A stretch of DNA of 57,197 nt from Candidatus Moraniibacteriota bacterium (GTDB lineage Bacteria; Patescibacteriota; Minisyncoccia; Moranbacterales; UBA1568). Made by a program: the position numbers and the translations under genes. Under the pieces are notes generated by a model that searched no databases, had not been told where the DNA came from, and was given only the letters and a program-made list of their open reading frames with translations. Shown here piece after piece: positions 20,080 to 29,622 of this stretch (its first letter is position 1; each line of letters starts with the position of its first letter). The stretch is taken from NCBI GenBank assembly GCA_018061645.1, contig JAGOTT010000007.1, positions 1 through 57,197 of the forward strand, read 5' to 3'.

Positions 20080-20706
20080 TCACACTATTTTCCGCTTTTT
20101 CTTCACGGGTTCAGGATACGGGTCGCTTGCTTCTTCGAAAAAAATCGACTTGATCTCAGGCTTTTCTTCTTCCGGTTCGACCGGATTCTGCGCGGCCGCG
20201 CGTTTCTTCCAGAGAAGAACAGCCTCGCGCCGCATCCTGCCGAGTTCCTCGTATATGATGATGACCGCCGGAATGACGATAAGCAGAATGAATCCGACCG
20301 GCTTTTTCACATACTCGACCACGAATCCGAGATACGGGATGCTAAAAAATACCCGCCCGATGATGTCGCTCTCCGGTGTCAGTCCCGCGTCCTGCGCTTC
20401 GTTCGCATCTCCCTTCAGCACGAACGATTTCCCGTTCTCGCCGATCTCCTCACGGATGATCCGGTGCGTTATCGTCACACCCTCATCGCTCGTCCGCTTC
20501 GTTACGATATCCCCGACACCGTATTCGGCAAGCGGTCGGACAAGCGCGATGCTTCCCGTGTGCACCGCCGGTTCCATCGATCCGGACAGCACCACGAAAG
20601 ACCGCAGACCGAAGAGCGAAAAAGTCGAAAGTGCCAAAAGTCCCGCCACGACCAGGAATCCTGTCACGACGACATTAAGCATGAGGGAAACGATTCGTTT
20701 CAGCAT
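20080..20706 (-). CDS. sipW: SipW-type signal peptidase I
   Basis: The 208-residue protein belongs to the ER/archaeal type of signal peptidase, using Ser and His. The catalytic Ser is in VLSGSMEPAVHTGS, the His in GVTITHRII, and the later conserved Asp/Gly box in VLKGDANEAQD. There is an N-terminal membrane helix and another near residue 140, then a charged cytoplasmic tail. In Bacillus this enzyme matures TasA for biofilm fibres. Here it is encoded between two TasA-like genes and a lamin-tail gene, all with matching signal sequences. Confidence 0.9.
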   Translation of the reverse strand: MLKRIVSLMLNVVVTGFLVVAGLLALSTFSLFGLRSFVVLSGSMEPAVHTGSIALVRPLAEYGVGDIVTKRTSDEGVTITHRIIREEIGENGKSFVLKGDANEAQDAGLTPESDIIGRVFFSIPYLGFVVEYVKKPVGFILLIVIPAVIIIYEELGRMRREAVLLWKKRAAAQNPVEPEEEKPEIKSIFFEEASDPYPEPVKKKRKIV

Positions 20707-20771: not shown

Positions 20772-21380
20772 GAATCCGGTCGTCAAGCTTGTTGGCCACT
20801 CGCCCGGACCCGCTCCGAGCTGACGCGCCTGCACCGCGAGGGATGCGTTGTATACTTGGCTCTTGTATGCATCACCAGCGGTCGTATCGAGCTTAACTGT
20901 CACTTGGAACTGCGATTTTCCTCCAGCAGGAATAGTGTAGTTCCCAACATCATCCCCCAACGGGCTGTCATAGAAAATTCCCGTGATAGGATCGACGGAA
21001 GCGAGCGTTGCCCAGACACTCCCATCCCATCGCTCAACCTTCGTTACCTTGATCTTCGTGGCATCAAGACCAGGGGTCACCCAACTCCCGAACGCCGCGC
21101 CGCGAATTTGCACACCCGTCGTACTCGTGTTCTTCACATCGAAATTAACCAATGTGGTTTCTCCCGGCATAAGACCGGTGACAGTAAATGACGTCATAAC
21201 CGCATCCGTATTTTGTCCCTGGATGTCGATCGAAAGTGTCCCCGTCGTGATGGTGTTTCCGCCCGCTGTTTTGTTCGCGCTGAAATACGCATAGGTACCT
21301 CCGACCACTGCGACCGCAGCCGCGATCACAAAGAGGCTTCGCAAGATATTAAACATAGTTTTTTTATAATGATTATCCAA
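20769..21380 (-). CDS. TasA/camelysin-like secreted protein 1
   Basis: A TTG start at 21380 is preferred because AGGAGGGG lies eight bases before it; the next in-frame ATG is eight codons later without a site. The 203-residue protein has a signal peptide of the SipW type, with YFSANKTAGGNTITTGTL after the helix. The beta-sandwich domain shows the TasA-like phrase GLMPGETTLVNFDVKNT. No catalytic residues are expected. It is probably a fibre or matrix subunit matured by the SipW enzyme encoded 63 nt downstream. Confidence 0.85.
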   Translation of the reverse strand: MDNHYKKTMFNILRSLFVIAAAVAVVGGTYAYFSANKTAGGNTITTGTLSIDIQGQNTDAVMTSFTVTGLMPGETTLVNFDVKNTSTTGVQIRGAAFGSWVTPGLDATKIKVTKVERWDGSVWATLASVDPITGIFYDSPLGDDVGNYTIPAGGKSQFQVTVKLDTTAGDAYKSQVYNASLAVQARQLGAGPGEWPTSLTTGF

Positions 21381-21393
21381 TTATTTCCCCTCC

Positions 21394-21431
21394 TGCCGCA
21401 TCGACACTTCCGGGTGGGGTACCCAACGGCA
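21394..21431 (-). promoter_or_regulatory. Structured 38-nt leader element, copy 2
   Basis: The outer stem TGCCG/CGGCA encloses a GGGTACCC-type hairpin and the conserved CCCGGAAGTGTCGA. The gene's AGGAGGGG lies right after the stem. Thirty of 38 positions match copy 1 and one outer pair shows a compensatory change. It is not a riboswitch class I recognise. Confidence 0.6.
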
Positions 21432-21454
21432 GTCTTCTCCCCTTAAGAGCGTTT

Positions 21455-21505
21455 CCTCGCTCCCTCCACCCCATGATATTCACGGAGTGAGAGGAGATCG
21501 GACTA
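21455..21505 (-). repeat. 51-bp element at the 3' end of TasA-like gene 2
   Basis: This is the second copy of the 51-bp element, differing at one base from 20721-20771 and again beginning at the stop codon. Confidence 0.85.
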
Positions 21506-22087
21506 CTCTGCCCAACCTGGGTTGTTCACCTGCGTCCCATCTACGACGATATTGGCGACCGCGCTTCCACCCTGAAGCGCGTTTCCGGCCGACGGGTCAA
21601 GCTGGAACGAGAGCTTGAAACAATGCGAGATGTTCGTCCCGAGCGACCCCCCTGTCGAAGATGTGATCGAACCGGACGGCGATTCGAACAGCATGTTCCT
21701 GAGCGTGTGGATCTGCTCGTAGGTCTCATTGATGTACTCGGTCCCACCGATACAGTAGCCGTGCTCCACTTTCACATTGAGCTTGTCATAGAACCCCGGG
21801 ACACTCTCGCTCACGGGACCGTCCTGGAACCGATACTTGATCGGCATGGTGGAAAGCTGGTTATACACTTCCATCTTATACGGACCATACCACTCTCCCG
21901 GAATCATATTCCCGAGATTCACGGAATTGGATGCCGTCAGATCCCCGTTCAATTTGAAATCAAGCGTCCCCGCCGCGAACGTGTTTCCGCTCACGGTTTC
22001 CGTATCGGTGAAATACGCCCACGTCGCTCCACCCGCCACCGCCGCGACCGCGACGACGACGAAAAGGCTCTTCAATATATTCGTCAT
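21503..22087 (-). CDS. TasA/camelysin-like secreted protein 2
   Basis: The 194-residue protein starts MTNILKSLFVVVAV, with a signal helix followed by TWAYFTDTETVSGNTFAAGTLDF, the standard SipW-dependent signature. The mature part has NMIPGEWYGPYKMEVYN, matching the TasA core strand. Two cysteines (CIGG and HCFKL regions) might pair. It is the first gene of the tasA-sipW transcript. The ribosome binding site GGAGGG lies unusually far, about 31 nt before the ATG; no alternative in-frame start of a usual type is seen between them. Confidence 0.85.
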   Translation of the reverse strand: MTNILKSLFVVVAVAAVAGGATWAYFTDTETVSGNTFAAGTLDFKLNGDLTASNSVNLGNMIPGEWYGPYKMEVYNQLSTMPIKYRFQDGPVSESVPGFYDKLNVKVEHGYCIGGTEYINETYEQIHTLRNMLFESPSGSITSSTGGSLGTNISHCFKLSFQLDPSAGNALQGGSAVANIVVDGTQVNNPGWAE

Positions 22088-22126
22088 AGCATTACATGAA
22101 AAACAGATTACAGTCCCTCCATGACT

Positions 22127-22164
22127 TGTCGCATCGACGCTTCCGGGCGGGACACCCTGCGACA
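22127..22164 (-). promoter_or_regulatory. Structured 38-nt leader element, copy 1
   Basis: The stem TGTCGCA/TGCGACA encloses GGGTGTCCC and the conserved CCCGGAAGCGTCGA, with GGAGGG shortly after. It is the same length and layout as copy 2; the third pair is U-A here and C-G there. Confidence 0.6.
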
Positions 22165-22206
22165 GACTCCGATTCCCGAAATCACACAAAGAACTTTTCG
22201 GCCATC

Positions 22207-22256
22207 AAAAAAGCCGATGGAAGTTACACAGAAAAATCTGTCGAACTTCCATCGGC
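22207..22256 (-). terminator. Strong terminator-like hairpin in the tasA leader
   Basis: GCCGATGGAAGTT pairs with AACTTCCATCGGC (13 bp) and six T follow. It lies downstream of the tasA promoter and upstream of the 38-nt element. It could be an attenuator of the tasA-sipW transcript, or simply end read-through from the GH81 operon. Confidence 0.8.
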
Positions 22257-22358
22257 TCTCTTTCGAGAAAGCGGCAATTTTCCACCTTCACCCATAGGGA
22301 GGAAATAACCTGAATTGAATTGTTTGTTTTCCAAAAAGAAACACCCGTTTCTTCTTAA

Positions 22359-22388
22359 ATTGTACACTTTGACCGACGCTTCGGTCAA
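22359..22388 (-). promoter_or_regulatory. Promoter of the tasA-sipW transcript with overlapping operator
   Basis: TTGACC, 18 bp and TACAAT. The -35 is part of a perfect inverted repeat, TTGACCGA-N4-TCGGTCAA, at 22369-22388. This is a good candidate binding site for a dimeric repressor. The leader from here to the start codon is about 265 nt. Confidence 0.7.
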
Positions 22389-22409
22389 TTTTCTGTCAAG
22401 TCTTCACCA

Positions 22410-24419
22410 CTAGCGCCCACCATTCCGTGAAATTTCGATATTCCGATAGGTTGTCTGATAGAGAAGTGCGCGGGACTTGATCGCAACCTTGTCCGAAACC
22501 GCCGCAAGCGAACCGGCTACAGCCCAGGGATCGGTATACGACCGGTACGCGAGAAAGAGGTCGCCCCATTCGTGCGTGGTCGGGTTCGGGTGGGTTCGCA
22601 AAACTTCCGCGACACGTTCGCCGGTATTCGGAAGCGTCGAAAGATACCGCGACGCGGGCGTGATTGGGAGCCACTGGATGCCATGGATATGCATCGGGTC
22701 CCCACTGAACCATGTCGCGAAATCGCGCTTACCTCCCCAGACGAGAGACGCCATCGCGTGCGCGTACCCGGCGGGAAAGGGATTGTCTTTTCCGAACCAA
22801 TACGCCTTCGTTCCGGCAAGCTCGACTGCGAAAAGTTCGGCTCCTGTTTTTTTGAAAGTGTCGTTTCCGGTCACTTCACCCCACATCCACACCCCGTACC
22901 AGGCGTTCAGCGCTTCGGATGTCGATTCCTGGTTGTTTCCGTCATTAAAGAGCGCGAAGCCATCCGCCCAGGAATGTCCATCGTAGGGGGCGAAGTTTCG
23001 CACATACGGGTACCGTGTACTGGTGCGGTCGGTATTCGCGATATCGAGAGCCAGTTCGTTCATGATCTGCTCCACCTTCGGGCGCAGCTCGGGGCGGAGT
23101 GAGACAAGCACGGCGGACGCCCGCAGATAATATCCATAGTGAAAATGATGGTCGTTTCCCTCCTTATTCCCGAATTCGTCGTTCTTCGCGGCAAGGATGG
23201 ATAGCTTTTCGTCGTAGGTGAAATTCCCAAGACTGGAAAGCGTTTCCTTTTCCAGGATATCGAGTAACGCATCCTTCTCCGATTTCATCCCGTACGTATC
23301 GGCAAGCTGTGCCACGCTCGCAAGACCGCCGAGCCAGGTTCCACGGAAATAGACGCCCCCGGGCGGAGTCTCTGCCGAGAGCCGCTTCACATCCTCGCGG
23401 ATCATCTCCTCTATCTTCGCTTTGGCGGACGGATCACTCACCGGATCGAAGGAAAAGAAAAAATCCGGATCGTCGTAGGCGATGGAAAATCCCTTCGTCC
23501 GAACGAGCCGGAAATCACCGATCGAAGTGCGATAGGTCCCGAGGGCATCGATCATATCCGCTCCCATCCCGGACCGGTGATGCGGCCAGAGAGTAGAGAG
23601 AATCGATTCATCGTTTTCCCGCGAAAAGGAATAGTCCGCGAAGATCTTTCCATCGGCATGGCGATACTCCACGCGTGTATCAAGAATCCGGTTCCACGGG
23701 AGTTCCGCAAAGAATGAAATCGGCTGGTCCGTTTCCTGCGGGACAAGAATGATGCGATAAGTCTTTTCCGACGAAAGCAGTTCCGCCGTGCCGGAAGAAA
23801 GCCCGTCACCCCCAAGCGAGAAAGCGCCGCGCCCCTGGACGATGACTACCGATTGACCCCGCTTGAGTACGACGCCGTTTTCGATAGGACTTCGTTCGAC
23901 CCCGTCCGCGCAGGAGAGGATCATCGGTCCGTCGAATGCATGTATGGAAACGATCGGGGACCCCTGGGACAGGTGGACCCGCCACGGCGATACACCGCTC
24001 CGGACGAAAAAAGAGGCATCCCAATCCCCATATCGGTCGATATCGACTCCGGTCGTTTCGGATCGCATACCCACCGAACACAAGGGGTCGAAGCTTCCGA
24101 AAACGGCGTTTTCCGTCGCCGAAACGGACGGGATACCGAGAGAAAGACCCTTCTCGTCGAAACGATAGGATCCCGGCAGGACGAACATCGGTGCCGTGGG
24201 AAATTTCTTATACACGCTCGAAAACCAGCTGTTCGTTTTCATCACGACGCTCCGCTGCTTCGTCTCGTTTTTTTCGATCGGATCCGCGGTCGGATTCTTC
24301 CCGATATCCGACACGACGACGTCTTCGTGCGGCGTCATCCGCCAAAAGACGGCTCCGGCGATGATCACTACGATCACGAGGAGGTGCCACCTGAACCAAT
24401 ATTTATTTTTCTGTTTCAT
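22410..24419 (-). CDS. Glycoside hydrolase family 81 endo-beta-1,3-glucanase, membrane-anchored
   Basis: The 669-residue protein has an N-terminal signal anchor (about residues 12-28) and a full GH81 body. Family motifs include NSWFSSVYKKFPTAPMFVLP near the start, NDHHFHYGYY, YDGHSWADGF with NDGNNQESTSEALNAWYG after it, and WFSGDPMHIHGIQWLP near the end. The Glu residues in the ESTSEA segment are in the position of the inverting-enzyme catalytic base. GH81 enzymes cleave beta-1,3-glucans. Its start overlaps the HlyD gene by 17 nt, so it is translationally tied to a synthase operon, which suggests editing or release of a self-made glucan. Confidence 0.9.
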   Translation of the reverse strand: MKQKNKYWFRWHLLVIVVIIAGAVFWRMTPHEDVVVSDIGKNPTADPIEKNETKQRSVVMKTNSWFSSVYKKFPTAPMFVLPGSYRFDEKGLSLGIPSVSATENAVFGSFDPLCSVGMRSETTGVDIDRYGDWDASFFVRSGVSPWRVHLSQGSPIVSIHAFDGPMILSCADGVERSPIENGVVLKRGQSVVIVQGRGAFSLGGDGLSSGTAELLSSEKTYRIILVPQETDQPISFFAELPWNRILDTRVEYRHADGKIFADYSFSRENDESILSTLWPHHRSGMGADMIDALGTYRTSIGDFRLVRTKGFSIAYDDPDFFFSFDPVSDPSAKAKIEEMIREDVKRLSAETPPGGVYFRGTWLGGLASVAQLADTYGMKSEKDALLDILEKETLSSLGNFTYDEKLSILAAKNDEFGNKEGNDHHFHYGYYLRASAVLVSLRPELRPKVEQIMNELALDIANTDRTSTRYPYVRNFAPYDGHSWADGFALFNDGNNQESTSEALNAWYGVWMWGEVTGNDTFKKTGAELFAVELAGTKAYWFGKDNPFPAGYAHAMASLVWGGKRDFATWFSGDPMHIHGIQWLPITPASRYLSTLPNTGERVAEVLRTHPNPTTHEWGDLFLAYRSYTDPWAVAGSLAAVSDKVAIKSRALLYQTTYRNIEISRNGGR

Positions 24420-25251
24420 TCCGTTCGAGAATGGAGTTCGGATCGACTCCGAGAATAAGACTGTTCCAGATAAGGGTCAACCGCTCCACCGGTCTGAGAT
24501 GCTCCCCGGCCCGATCGTCCGGTATCACATCCAGGCGCTCACCTTCGATAAAGGATGCGCCCGCTTCTTCATCACGGAGCGTGAACAGTATCTCATATTT
24601 TTCCTGCGCGACCTGCGGCTGCCCGTTCGCATCGATGATCGGAGCATCTTCTTTCACCTTGCCGACTCCCTCGAAGGAAGCGATATACGCCTGCCCGAGA
24701 CGCGCACTGAAGACCGTGATACCACGGCGCTTCTCAATGAGCGCATACTGTTCCGGGCGGATCGATCCGACAAGCTTCACATCCTCATCCGCGAACAGTG
24801 TCGCTATCGCGCTGCCACCGAGCACATACGACCCCTTGGTGACAGGGATTTCATAGAGGATCCCGCTGCGCGTCGCCCTCACATCATACTCCGTCGCGCG
24901 CGATTTGATGAGTTCGAGCTCGGTTCTCGCTGAAAGATTGTCGTCGGCAACGTCCTCGAGCGCCTCTACGCGGGCGGTGACGCTTTCATCGGACAGACGG
25001 ACGATGATATCGCCCTCCTTCACGTGATCCCCAGGTTTGAAGCGGACTTCCTCGACCTTTCCCGCGATGGTGGTCGAAATATTGACATCCTGCTTGTCCA
25101 CAGTCAGAAATAACAGCTTCTCCGCGAGATTGTAGGTATTGATCTTCCGTACGAGCGCCTGCGTCGCGACCAGGAAGACCGCCGCGAACACGACCGTCAG
25201 ATAGAGGGCGTTCACGATATATTTCCGAAAGGGCATATTCTTCGATTCCAT
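24403..25251 (-). CDS. HlyD/membrane-fusion family protein
   Basis: The start is placed at the ATG after the upstream stop; a GTG further up lies inside the synthase gene. The 282-residue protein has one membrane helix near the N-terminus. Split lipoyl/barrel-sandwich halves follow (ISTTIAGKVEEVRFKPGDHVKEGDIIVRL and VRATRSGILYEIPVTKGSYVLGG, cut here for length), with a short helical hairpin between and a beta-barrel tail. In Alg44- and HlyD-like proteins this part lines a polymer export path. Its position between a processive synthase and a glucanase fits a role in glucan secretion. Confidence 0.85.
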   Translation of the reverse strand: MESKNMPFRKYIVNALYLTVVFAAVFLVATQALVRKINTYNLAEKLLFLTVDKQDVNISTTIAGKVEEVRFKPGDHVKEGDIIVRLSDESVTARVEALEDVADDNLSARTELELIKSRATEYDVRATRSGILYEIPVTKGSYVLGGSAIATLFADEDVKLVGSIRPEQYALIEKRRGITVFSARLGQAYIASFEGVGKVKEDAPIIDANGQPQVAQEKYEILFTLRDEEAGASFIEGERLDVIPDDRAGEHLRPVERLTLIWNSLILGVDPNSILERNETEK

Positions 25252-25270
25252 AGGTTCCGAATGATTATAG

Positions 25271-26800
25271 TTATGCTTCCTGCGGCTTTTCCATCTCCTC
25301 CGGGAGACGATACTCGACACCGAACCGGCGTTCTCCGGTCAGGAACAATCCGAGAAGATACATATTTACGAGCGCCCAGACGCTGTACATGACCGTGGAC
25401 CAGAAATCGTAGGCATTATACCATCCGACGATGATGGCGAACGGCGTCAGGATGATGATCACCATATGCGGCCATATCCATTCCATGAGATACCCCTGCG
25501 AACTTTTCTTCGAAGTCGTCGCCGTCCATTCCTGCTCACGATTGAATATGACCGAGAGAAGCGCGAGAACGTACGGATAAAAGGTGGCGAGTGCGGTCGC
25601 GACCGTCGCGATACTCAGTCGTCCCGTAAGGAGCCAGGTGAGCGAATAATACAGGAAGAAGAACGGGAGATAATGGACGGCCCAATAGAGCGTGCTGTCC
25701 GCCTGGAGCGGCTTTATCCCATACAGGAGATACAGGAGCGGAAAGAGGAGATACACGACCATCGACATCCCGACGAGGAAGAACGCGTTCGACATGACAT
25801 ACTGGATGCGCTGATCGAGATGGAGCGAGCTTGATCGCATCGGATTGTAGTGAAAAAGCATCTTGAGACCGCCGCTCGCCCACCGGAGCTGCTGTTTGAA
25901 ATAGACGACGACCTTGTCCGGGGCCTGTCCACGAGCCAAGACGCGGTTCACAAAAATAGTGTTCCATCCGCCCTCATGCAGCTTGAGCGAAGTCCAGATA
26001 TCCTCCGACTTATTGAGCGCTATCCCACCGATACCCTCTATGGCCGCGCGTCGGAAAATCATGTTCGTTCCGACGCAAAAAGCCGAGTTCGAGATATTTT
26101 TCGACGGACAGACGTATTTGTAGAACACTTCCTGCGCCTGCGCGGCTCCCGCAGCGATGAAGCGCTCGGTATTGGTGTAGTGCTGGGGCGACTGGACCAT
26201 CGCTATCTTCGCTTCGACCATGAACGGGAGGAGCGTATCGATGAATTCCGGCTCGACGACCTGATCGGCATCGAACACCGCGAAGAATTCCCCCGTGCAA
26301 TACTTCAACCCATGATTGAGGTTCCCGGATTTGGCATGCGCCCGATCTTTCCGTGAAACATAATTCGTTCCGAGCTCGTCCGCGAGCTCCTTCACCTCCA
26401 CGGAGCGCCCGTCATCGAAGATATACGTTTCATGCGGATAGCGGAGCGCGACGACGGAAGCGATCGTTTCACGGATGACCTCGATCGGTTCTCCGGCGGT
26501 CGTGACGATGATATCGAGCGTCGGCTGTTCACGGTCCATCCATTCCTTGTCCCATTTCCGAGTCATCCGATGATGCGTGTCCACGATGACATCGAGCAGC
26601 ACTGTCGCCCAGAGCCCCATCAAAACGACGACACTGATAGAGTCGGCCATCACCTGGAACGCATACAGGATCAGGTGGTCGGCGTTCGTGGGATTGAAGA
26701 CGAACGTCCCATACAACGCGACCACGAACGGGGCCGCGAGCAGGAAAAATATCGTCATGTTGCTGATCCGCGTCGCGGAAAGCTGTCTCTGATGTTCCAT
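25271..26800 (-). CDS. BcsA-like processive GT2 polysaccharide synthase
   Basis: The 509-residue membrane glycosyltransferase has two N-terminal helices, a cytoplasmic GT-A domain and about five C-terminal helices. All processive GT2 motifs are present: DDG (YIFDDGRS), DAD (VFDADQVVEP), the S/TED box as NKSEDIW, and QxxRW as KQQLRWASG. There is no PilZ domain, so c-di-GMP control of the cellulose-synthase kind is not indicated. Cellulose, curdlan-like beta-1,3-glucan or a mixed polymer are all possible; the operon glucanase favours beta-1,3 links. Start chosen at MEHQRQL, 14 nt after the upstream gene. Confidence 0.9.
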   Translation of the reverse strand: MEHQRQLSATRISNMTIFFLLAAPFVVALYGTFVFNPTNADHLILYAFQVMADSISVVVLMGLWATVLLDVIVDTHHRMTRKWDKEWMDREQPTLDIIVTTAGEPIEVIRETIASVVALRYPHETYIFDDGRSVEVKELADELGTNYVSRKDRAHAKSGNLNHGLKYCTGEFFAVFDADQVVEPEFIDTLLPFMVEAKIAMVQSPQHYTNTERFIAAGAAQAQEVFYKYVCPSKNISNSAFCVGTNMIFRRAAIEGIGGIALNKSEDIWTSLKLHEGGWNTIFVNRVLARGQAPDKVVVYFKQQLRWASGGLKMLFHYNPMRSSSLHLDQRIQYVMSNAFFLVGMSMVVYLLFPLLYLLYGIKPLQADSTLYWAVHYLPFFFLYYSLTWLLTGRLSIATVATALATFYPYVLALLSVIFNREQEWTATTSKKSSQGYLMEWIWPHMVIIILTPFAIIVGWYNAYDFWSTVMYSVWALVNMYLLGLFLTGERRFGVEYRLPEEMEKPQEA

Positions 26801-26814
26801 AGGTTGTTTCCCGT

Positions 26815-29622
26815 TTATTGAACCTTGCGCTTCCGACTGAAATAATATGCCGCAGAAGTCGCTCCTATCATGATGAGGCCGACGGACTGCGCAGGCCAGT
26901 GCCACCACGGCCAACTATTCTTGAGCGATACCAGGTCCCGCTCTTCGGGGATTTCGGAGAGGTCGATACGCATGAATCGGAGCGGGGTCGGCGATATCCC
27001 GACGCCCTCGCCCCCCTCGACACTCCAGGCATCATCGAAGCTCTGCATGATCAACAATACCGGCTGTTCGAAACCGGAAAGATCACGATATGACGAAATA
27101 TCGACATCGAGCCCGTCCGGACCGACGAACGAAAGCGGAAGAGGGGTACCCTTGTCCGATCGGAGCAGATCGGCCATCGTGCCGATCGGCACATCCCAGC
27201 GCTGATACGTGGACGCATGAAGCGTCGGAAGAGGGATATCGCCGGAAAACAGTTCTTCGGGAATATCGCGACGATCGAACACATATGCATAGCGTATCGG
27301 ACCGGTATATCTCAGGACCGTGACCGTATCAAGGAGGTGGACGCTTTCGATTTCTTCAAGCCTCTCGAAATACGGATTCTCTTTCTCCGTCAGTCCGGAA
27401 ATAAGCGGCGAAGTCGTGGGGAGGAAGAGATATTCGATTCCGAGCACCGCGGCATAATTCTCGACGGTTCGGATATGATTCTCTGAAACGCCGGTATAGG
27501 CGACACTCTGCCGCATGAGCATGCGGAGGCGGGTCGAGTACGGATGCGGTTGCGCGTGCTCGTTGTATGAAGTCGCGAACCGGATCCCCTGCGGAGCGAA
27601 ATAGCTCGCCTCGGAAACATTGTCGTAGTAGACGCTTCCGGTCGGAAGCGCGCGGTCCTTGAAATAGACTGCCACCGGATTCTCAATGGCGTTCACCACC
27701 GGCGGAACATAGAACCCGGAAGCCGTATTGATCGCACCGGAAATGGAAATCGCCATGAATCCGACCGCGAGCGACATCGCGGAACGTGAGCGGATATCCC
27801 CGAGAGTCTGACTGAAGATCGCGGCGAAAGAATAGACGAGCGTGAACCCGATGATCGGCAGGCCGCGCGAGAATTGGAATTGTGAAAGGAACCCGGGGAG
27901 GAAGCCGTTCTGACCGAGGGAAATGAGAAGGAGATAGAACGAAGAAAAGGAAAAGAGTGCCTTCACCCAAGGCGCGATGCGATCGGACCTGATGATCAAA
28001 AGAAGCCACGAAACGACGAAGACGGCCCAATAGAGGAAGCTGAGTCCGCCGGACACCGGGATGAGCGACAACGAGAGATATATCGACGATTTGAATATCG
28101 GGTTCGTGAAGAGATATCCTGAAGTGAAGTACTGGGACAAGAACGGCGTCGCGCTGACAAGGTAGATCACCGCAAGCATGAAGAGTTTCCGGGAATCATT
28201 CTTGATTGGCGAAAACAGGACGAAAAAACCGAGAAGTATGCTCAGGCTGAAACCGAGCACCGGATGCACCGTCCATATAGCGCCGGTTATGGCGGTAAGG
28301 ATTGAAGCAAGAGCGAGATTATCGAACGACCGTATCCACAAAAGAACATACAAGGGAAGTACGGCGAACGAAAGATAGATGGAATAATCCTGCATGGAAC
28401 CCCACTCCTGTACCATGGTATAGGAAAGCAGGACGGCTGCTGCTGCGAAGACGCGGTTCACTCCCAGAAGACGCAGCGAAGCATAGAGCGCGATGCGAAG
28501 ACCGACAAACACGCCGACCATGAGATAGATGAGTACAGTAGTGATCGGCAGCCCGGTGGCGCTCGCGATACCGAGGATCAGATGATGCTGGAGATACTGG
28601 TACAGCCTCCAGATATTCATCCCGTTCGCCCAGACATGGTTCCACGACGGCATACCGTACTGTTCAAGGGACTGCGCCCGGAAAGCATGATAGATCCAAT
28701 CCTCGTAACCGGTATAGATGAACGGATATCCGGTGAAATACCCGACAAGCAGCCATCCGACAGCGATCACAAGAGCGATGATAGGGATGTCATGCAGATC
28801 CAATCTCCCGGACATCGTGTCGGAGGTTTTCTTTTCGGACAGGGAACGATTCAGATATTCACGCTCCTGTCGCCGTTCCTCGCGGACAAGTTCTATGGTC
28901 TGTTTGCGAAGATGCAGGAGGTGAAGAATGTATTGATATCCCTGTTCGAGCGTCGCCTTACTCGTCTCATTCTCCCGCTTCCGGAATACATACGGCACTT
29001 CATCGACTTGTGACCACGGCGTCCGGGACAGGACGTCTATCAATATCTTGAACCCACGAAGACCGCCGAAAGAAACGTCTTTCACGAGGTCACGTTGCAT
29101 GATGAAAAAACCGCTTCCCGGATCGGTCGTCTTTCGCGTCTGCGGAAGAAATATCCAGGCAAGCACCCGGCAGACATGCGACGCGAATTTCCGATACGCG
29201 GTACCAAGCCCGTCGGCACCTCCTCCGGGGACATAGCGGCTCGCCACGACGATATCTTTTTTCGAGGAAATGATGGTCCGAATGAGCTCCGGAGCGACTT
29301 CCGGGGGATGCTGAAGGTCCGAATCCATGCACAGGATGTAGTTCCCTTTCGCTTCCTGAAATCCGTCGACGAATGCCATCGCGAGTCCGTTCCGCTTCGC
29401 CTTCGGACGATGCAACATCCTAACATTCGGATAGAGCTTCATCGCCTTCGTTATCCGTTTCGGCGTATCGTCCGAACTGTCGTCGATGAAAAGGATCTCG
29501 GTGGAATACTTCACGCCGTCAAGCGCCGCATCAAGAGCCCGTATCAACGGCATGACATTGTCAGCCTCGTTGAAAGTCGGGAGGAGTATCGTGACATCTA
29601 TTGTTTCAGTTCTTTTTTCCAT
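26815..29622 (-). CDS. Fused DPM1-like GT2 and multispan GT-C-like membrane protein
   Basis: The 935-residue protein joins two parts. Residues 1-240 are a polyprenol-phosphate glycosyltransferase: TILLPTFNEADNV, LFIDDSSDDTP, MDSDLQHPPEV and the DPGSGFFI region. From about residue 270 there are about eleven membrane helices, with a first-loop acidic motif (YTGYEDWIYHAFR) like GT-C enzymes, then an extracytoplasmic C-terminal domain and a final helix ending RKRK. The protein could charge a lipid carrier and use it in the same polypeptide. The start follows the FAD gene by 7 nt. Confidence 0.8.
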   Translation of the reverse strand: MEKRTETIDVTILLPTFNEADNVMPLIRALDAALDGVKYSTEILFIDDSSDDTPKRITKAMKLYPNVRMLHRPKAKRNGLAMAFVDGFQEAKGNYILCMDSDLQHPPEVAPELIRTIISSKKDIVVASRYVPGGGADGLGTAYRKFASHVCRVLAWIFLPQTRKTTDPGSGFFIMQRDLVKDVSFGGLRGFKILIDVLSRTPWSQVDEVPYVFRKRENETSKATLEQGYQYILHLLHLRKQTIELVREERRQEREYLNRSLSEKKTSDTMSGRLDLHDIPIIALVIAVGWLLVGYFTGYPFIYTGYEDWIYHAFRAQSLEQYGMPSWNHVWANGMNIWRLYQYLQHHLILGIASATGLPITTVLIYLMVGVFVGLRIALYASLRLLGVNRVFAAAAVLLSYTMVQEWGSMQDYSIYLSFAVLPLYVLLWIRSFDNLALASILTAITGAIWTVHPVLGFSLSILLGFFVLFSPIKNDSRKLFMLAVIYLVSATPFLSQYFTSGYLFTNPIFKSSIYLSLSLIPVSGGLSFLYWAVFVVSWLLLIIRSDRIAPWVKALFSFSSFYLLLISLGQNGFLPGFLSQFQFSRGLPIIGFTLVYSFAAIFSQTLGDIRSRSAMSLAVGFMAISISGAINTASGFYVPPVVNAIENPVAVYFKDRALPTGSVYYDNVSEASYFAPQGIRFATSYNEHAQPHPYSTRLRMLMRQSVAYTGVSENHIRTVENYAAVLGIEYLFLPTTSPLISGLTEKENPYFERLEEIESVHLLDTVTVLRYTGPIRYAYVFDRRDIPEELFSGDIPLPTLHASTYQRWDVPIGTMADLLRSDKGTPLPLSFVGPDGLDVDISSYRDLSGFEQPVLLIMQSFDDAWSVEGGEGVGISPTPLRFMRIDLSEIPEERDLVSLKNSWPWWHWPAQSVGLIMIGATSAAYYFSRKRKVQ

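Follow-up and report, generated by a model that had tools for sequence, protein, structure and literature searches.

The c-di-GMP-II and c-di-GMP-II-GAG riboswitches (RF01786 and RF03169), like the GGUCGA element that we report here, occur in TasA leaders within the same order. Their aptamers lie upstream of a terminator, whereas the GGUCGA element lies downstream and is of other sequence and structure. The preQ1-I, SAM-II/V and SAM/SAH riboswitches have a short H-type pseudoknot in the 5' leader, as does the form of the element found in sister lineages. However, no Rfam match to these riboswitches was obtained here, and the copies of the window are bulged stems that capture no start-proximal Shine-Dalgarno sequence. 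CsrA-type and autogenous ribosomal-protein-type leaders likewise carry a short, invariant and unpaired motif on helices of free sequence; to our knowledge, GGUCGA is not a motif of either system. Attachment to host cells through surface structures is the presumed way of life of Patescibacteria, and we know of almost nothing on how these structures are controlled. No paper on TasA/SipW leader RNAs in these bacteria was found in the literature. A leader RNA of TasA/SipW genes with covarying structure and no Rfam entry is a concrete handle on this control of the cell surface.

Two conserved copies ahead of diverged TasA genes

The window (i.e., the whole stretch of DNA analysed) comprises 57,197 nt of contig JAGOTT010000007.1 of Candidatus Moraniibacteriota bacterium (GCA_018061645.1). 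Two elements, C1 and C2, each precede one of the two TasA-like genes of its TasA/SipW operon. The features of this region, from upstream to downstream, are:

22359..22388, minus strand: promoter-like TTGACC-18-TACAAT upstream of the leader (10/12 match; a similar number of such sites is expected by chance)
22207..22256, minus strand: leader hairpin upstream of C1 that resembles an intrinsic terminator and has a T-run (from sequence; long stem visible in the cmscan alignment)
22127..22164, minus strand: element C1 (from sequence, fold and relatives)
22115..22120, minus strand: GGAGGG behind C1, at a distance of 27 nt to the ATG; an alternative fold would have GGGAC paired with the P2 loop (GUCCC)
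21503..22087, minus strand: TasA-like gene 1, downstream of C1, with a SipW-type signal peptide, Peptidase_M73/TasA family
21454..21505, minus strand: copy 1 of a second element, R, a hairpin after the TasA1 stop (from covariation)
21394..21431, minus strand: element C2 (from sequence, fold and relatives)
21387..21393, minus strand: GGAGGGG behind C2, at a distance of 30 nt to the ATG; an alternative fold would have it paired with CCC(C) of P2
20769..21356, minus strand: TasA-like gene 2, downstream of C2; its ATG at 21356 corresponds to the start of the ortholog behind leader L015
20720..20771, minus strand: copy 2 of R, between the TasA2 stop and the SipW-like signal peptidase (from covariation)
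20080..20706, minus strand: SipW-like signal peptidase I of the operon

The hairpin at 22207..22256 is absent from the list of the consensus scan, and its loop exceeds the limit of that scan.

An earlier note on this DNA had described C1 and C2 at these coordinates as two 38-nt copies with 30 of 38 positions identical and a common core, and it was correct in each of these points. The core CCCGGAAG-Y-GTCGATGCG is exact in both copies. When the 150-nt leaders of C1 and C2 were dinucleotide-shuffled 1000 times, the best match averaged 19.6/38 and did not exceed 24/38. The flanks of C1 and C2 are at chance identity (16/60 upstream and 9/39 downstream), and the TasA-like proteins behind the copies, also recognized earlier as diverged, are ~28% identical to each other. 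In the 1.0-Mb genome, the core is found at only these two places, even with up to 2 mismatches allowed. Given the 30/38 match, the chance-level flanks, the diverged proteins and the lack of a third copy, C1 and C2 are a sharply bounded conserved island between diverged paralogs and not the remnant of a recent duplication of the whole region.

GGAGG(G) follows each copy, as had been claimed, but it is not the adjacent ribosome binding site that it had been taken for. The distance from its end to the start codon is 27 nt for C1 (start at 22087) and 30 nt for C2 (start at 21356), which is too long for ordinary Shine-Dalgarno use. Only a TTG at 21380 behind C2 would be normally spaced as a start; it is unsupported as the start of TasA2, as the start of the L015 ortholog aligns with the ATG at 21356. 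At most TasA starts of the order, no Shine-Dalgarno sequence of this type is found. Rfam 15 at the gathering threshold identified only a tRNA in the window, and a permissive Rfam search of 21300-22460 returned chance-level matches only, in agreement with the earlier view that the element fits no known riboswitch class.

Fold of the copies and of their relatives in the same family

When folded alone, C1 and C2 have the same predicted structure, in which a hairpin (P2) is stacked on an outer stem (P1) and a one-sided bulge of 11 nt between P2 and the 3' strand of P1 contains the box GUCGA. P1 is 7 bp long in C1 and 6 bp in C2, while P2 has 5 bp in both. As first read, C1 has U-A and C2 has C-G as the third P1 pair. 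The predicted parts are:

22164-22158 with 22133-22127, minus strand: P1 of C1
22157-22153 with 22149-22145, minus strand: P2 hairpin of C1
22144-22134, minus strand: bulge of C1, ending in the box GUCGA at 22138-22134
21431-21426 with 21399-21394, minus strand: P1 of C2
21425-21421 with 21415-21411, minus strand: P2 hairpin of C2
21410-21400, minus strand: bulge of C2, with the box GUCGA at 21405-21401

The fold energies are not below those of shuffled sequences (z of -0.8 for C1 and -0.1 for C2). In longer context, the minimum-energy fold of both copies differs from the P1/P2 structure: the C-rich strand of P2 is paired to the GGAGGG further downstream, and the sequence around GUCG-AUG-CGRC folds into a small hairpin. 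The former pairing, GUCCC/GGGAC in C1 versus CCCC/GGGG in C2, includes one compensatory change. From these modeled folds, a two-state RNA is possible.

TasA leaders from the same GTDB family (given L numbers here) were found via the protein family; L013 and L021 belong to the two TasA genes of one genome. GTCGA ends 49, 45, 47 and 55 nt before the TasA start in L013, L021, L014a and L015, respectively, and 46 and 44 nt before it in C1 and C2, with a chance expectation of 0.12 occurrences per 60 nt. L014a, L021 and L013 each have a hairpin directly 5' of the box, and the 5' side of this hairpin has a pairing partner in the strand 3' of the box. Compared with shuffled flanks, the template P1-P2-box-P1' gave p = 0.003 (C1), 0.007 (C2), 0.009 (L014a), 0.047 (L021) and 0.070 (L013). 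The unconstrained minimum-energy fold is this template in C1, C2, L014a and L013, and L021 comes close to it. All 40 of 40 cells pair in a spliced alignment of five leaders, and 4/8 pairs are changed on both sides; the register of this alignment was chosen by hand, so these counts lean towards structure. The pairs were counted on the spliced alignment because the MAFFT alignments of the family misplaced the box, and no covariance model was built from them. It should also be noted that the family structure is based on five or six leaders, that C1 and C2 are paralogs and that the template was suggested partly by the same sequences.

L015, which belongs to the TasA2 ortholog of a Candidatus Moraniibacteriota MAG, has retained AAG-N-GTCGATGCGGCAG and a P1 but no P2. 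It does not fit the P1-P2 template, and neither do L014b, in which the box lies at another distance, and L017, which is without the box. A genome scan for close TasA2 orthologs returned solely the Moraniibacteriota MAG already seen as G013. As judged from these alignments, P1, P2 and the box of the C1/C2 type appear to be kept with compensatory changes in other TasA leaders of the family. A lack of covarying copies in related genomes, or copies at random positions, had been named as outcomes that would speak against a regulatory RNA; what was found instead are diverged relatives at the same place.

GGUCGA leaders in the order and the class

A TasA-family gene was identified in 32/131 genomes of the order. 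In 31 TasA leaders of the order, GGTCGA was found 18 times on the sense strand and 0 times on the antisense strand, with a mean of 1.2 after shuffling, while GTCGA was present on the sense strand of 22/31 and on the antisense strand of 2/31. These leaders often have AAAGGUCGA, which is followed by a short H-type pseudoknot. Among 8 hand-picked members of this pseudoknot form, 88.8% of the cells pair and 12 are doubly changed, compared to 4.0 after shuffling; for 18 members, in an alignment fitted to the first helix only, 86.1% pair and 27 cells are doubly changed versus 9.7. A covariance-model search of the order genomes matched 13 places, 12 of which are upstream of TasA or other secreted-protein genes. 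The order-wide GGUCGA pseudoknot element had no match in Rfam. At the class level, the pseudoknot form is rare, and many TasA leaders still have AAAGGUCG followed by A or G.

A few genes for secreted proteins other than TasA have the box as well. In L052, L059 and L058, the GGUCGA pseudoknot precedes genes for secreted proteins that are not TasA-like, i.e., one secreted protein family in two genomes and a repeat-rich secreted protein in the third. In the class-level TasA leaders L071 and L077, the box precedes a long-range helix (GUGGCUU ... AAGCCAC) that encloses an inserted stretch, which is possibly an enlarged pseudoknot form. Another class-level TasA leader, L065, contains three box-like repeats.

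C1 and C2 share the box, its strand, its place and the gene with the leaders of the pseudoknot form, and they have the feature by which the GGUCGA class is recognized here, namely that the leader of a TasA/SipW-exported gene has the GUCGA box in sense orientation. As members of the order-wide pseudoknot itself, they were rejected, as the models R1 and R2 gave no match above chance. The best match to CCNNAAG, the strand that comes after the first pseudoknot helix, adjoins the box in C1 (p = 0.14), C2 (p = 0.059) and L015 (p = 0.02), and CCNNAAG adjoining the box is absent in L014a, L021 and L013. As a lead, this position suggests that the same core may be connected with its strands permuted. 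The kinship of C1 and C2 with the pseudoknot form would thus rest on the box, its place and this possible permutation. We regard C1 and C2 as a new candidate leader RNA within a wider GGUCGA theme on Patescibacterial surface-fibre genes. Tentatively, and with more doubt than confidence, this theme could represent an undescribed class of regulatory RNA on TasA genes in the Patescibacteria class around Moranbacteria, which would have an invariant GGUCGA box and two topologies (one an H-type pseudoknot, the other a bulged stem with permuted strands), would sense or bind a partner, and would lie downstream of c-di-GMP-II-type riboswitches in some lineages.

Those riboswitches were predicted in TasA leaders from other families of the order, as c-di-GMP-II-GAG or c-di-GMP-II type aptamers:

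L031, 1211-1303, plus strand
L045, 1870-1965, minus strand
L026, 1962-2070, minus strand

The c-di-GMP-II-GAG aptamer of L031 lies upstream of a terminator and scores 43.1 bits against a gathering score of 40, while the c-di-GMP-II-type matches in L045 and L026 are weaker and below gathering. Neither the leader nor the element of the window has a match to the c-di-GMP-II aptamer. Two regulatory RNAs, one after the other, are probably present in some sister leaders. The genomes G128 (L031) and G097 (L026) are not listed among those with a GGDEF match. The window's own genome has a GGDEF match. As a universal ligand of the box, c-di-GMP was rejected, as G001, G002, G013, G101, G106, G111, G095 and G120, all of which have the box, are not among the GGDEF-positive genomes. 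Given that so many genomes with the box have no GGDEF match, c-di-GMP is unlikely to be the general ligand of box leaders.

Proposed function and alternative explanations

We propose that C1 and C2 are a structured cis-acting leader in which P1 and P2 display GUCGA ~45 nt before the TasA start, that they are the local form of the wider GGUCGA class on Moranbacteria-type Patescibacteria and that a trans-acting factor tunes the TasA message, a proposal whose chances of being right we put at about even. It starts from what was observed in the leader: that the element exists, how it folds in relatives, where it lies and that its box is conserved in a strand-specific manner. P1 and P2, as stacked helices of free sequence, would hold the bulge that presents GUCGA. 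We infer that a trans-acting factor recognizes GGUCGA in the leader and that this recognition would tune the translation or the lifetime of the TasA message, with the direction of the effect likewise conjectural; such regulation would act after the start of transcription. We favour a protein or an RNA over a small metabolite as the partner, since lineages differ in how the helices are arranged around the box. Of the earlier reading as a cis-regulatory RNA acting on translation, the structured cis element is supported by relatives at the same place and by covariation, while action on an adjacent ribosome binding site is not, given the 27-30 nt between GGAGGG and the start and the lack of such a site at most TasA starts in the order.

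If GGUCGA and its neighbouring helices instead formed the pocket of a small-ligand riboswitch, the ligand could switch the leader between the P1/P2 fold and the alternative one, i.e., the GUCG-AUG-CGRC hairpin together with pairing of the P2 loop with the downstream GGGAC or GGGG. That both copies in longer context pair the C-rich strand of P2 with the GGAGGG region, that this pairing has a compensatory change and that sister leaders have an H-type pseudoknot, a shape used by known riboswitches, beside the box would all be consistent with such a switch. However, the paired GGAGGG is not at Shine-Dalgarno distance, complementarity between the loop and the downstream region is lacking in L014a, L021 and L013, and the helix architecture around the box varies between lineages, unlike that of most aptamers. 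We consider a small-ligand riboswitch unlikely. Sequestration of a Shine-Dalgarno sequence by pairing of the P2 loop with GGAGGG was rejected as well: it could form in C1 and C2 but lacks conservation, and GGAGGG is too distant from the start, so that the switching region of C1 and C2 has no Shine-Dalgarno sequence at normal distance. An AUG overlaps the box at 22134 (C1) and 21401 (C2), and GGAAG-YGUCG-AUG-CGR-CAR could be a small upstream ORF that has a ribosome site of its own and through which tasA translation is coupled or attenuated. The putative products are MRQVMEGL (C1) and MRQEGK (C2), each followed by a stop, and MRQ... in L015 (20 codons, overlapping the tasA start). M-R-Q is kept in these three leaders with synonymous changes, GGAAG is ~5 nt before the AUG in C1 and C2, and the ORF of L015 ends over the tasA start. 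Such a leader peptide should have a conserved start codon and frame in relatives, but L013, L021 and most leaders of the pseudoknot form have no AUG at the box though GUCGA is kept, L014a reads in frame into TasA, and the 5' strand of P1, which is outside the ORF, changes in compensation. The C1/C2 element is not generally coding, and a leader peptide is in our judgement quite improbable.

The stems might also be passive and, with no regulator involved, just shield an abundant mRNA at its 5' end or in an intercistronic region. The element is indeed intercistronic in C2 and L013, and each tasA stop is followed by R, another strong hairpin, but passive protection leaves a strand-specific, invariant and mostly unpaired box unexplained, and we give it little weight. 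The arrangement of two tandem copies beside the 52-nt R repeat, which is 98% identical between its copies, could further be taken for a mobile or tandem-duplicated repeat without function. Both copies are, however, before tasA, the genome has no other one, their flanks do not match and their relatives are at the same place. In viral contigs, all six exact matches to the core are within long open frames; in 28 genomes of the family, the matches with 2 mismatches, tried as near-exact cores in relatives, occur as by chance in unrelated sequence. We hold a functionless repeat to be very improbable.

A second RNA element and the surrounding locus

R is a 52-nt hairpin. In six copies from four genomes, 96.7% of its cells are paired and 14 are doubly changed, compared to 5.1 after shuffling. 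Its flanks are near-invariant (AUCUC.U.UC and GGGAGCGAGGA, with ATCTCCTCTC as the 5' flank). The R model matches 8/124 genomes of the order, mostly directly after TasA; the loci, before SipW or a second TasA gene, are those of the window, L013, L014, L037, L107, L108 and L109. No Rfam match to R was obtained in the loci searched. Based on this strong covariation in the sequences, R is a separate RNA element in the same operon as C1 and C2. The c-di-GMP-II-type riboswitch in some sister operons, together with R in several, suggests layered RNA control of surface fibres.

Upstream of C1, the long leader at 22200-22360 on the minus strand lies between the promoter-like site and the strong terminator-like hairpin. 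It has no Rfam match and may contain a further attenuator or aptamer. Ahead of the TasA/SipW operon, 22410-26914 on the minus strand encodes a cellulose-synthase-like glycosyltransferase, an HlyD-like protein and a GH81-type glucanase, which together with the operon suggests a joint matrix or exopolysaccharide locus. The gene order HlyD-TasA-SipW is also kept in L015.
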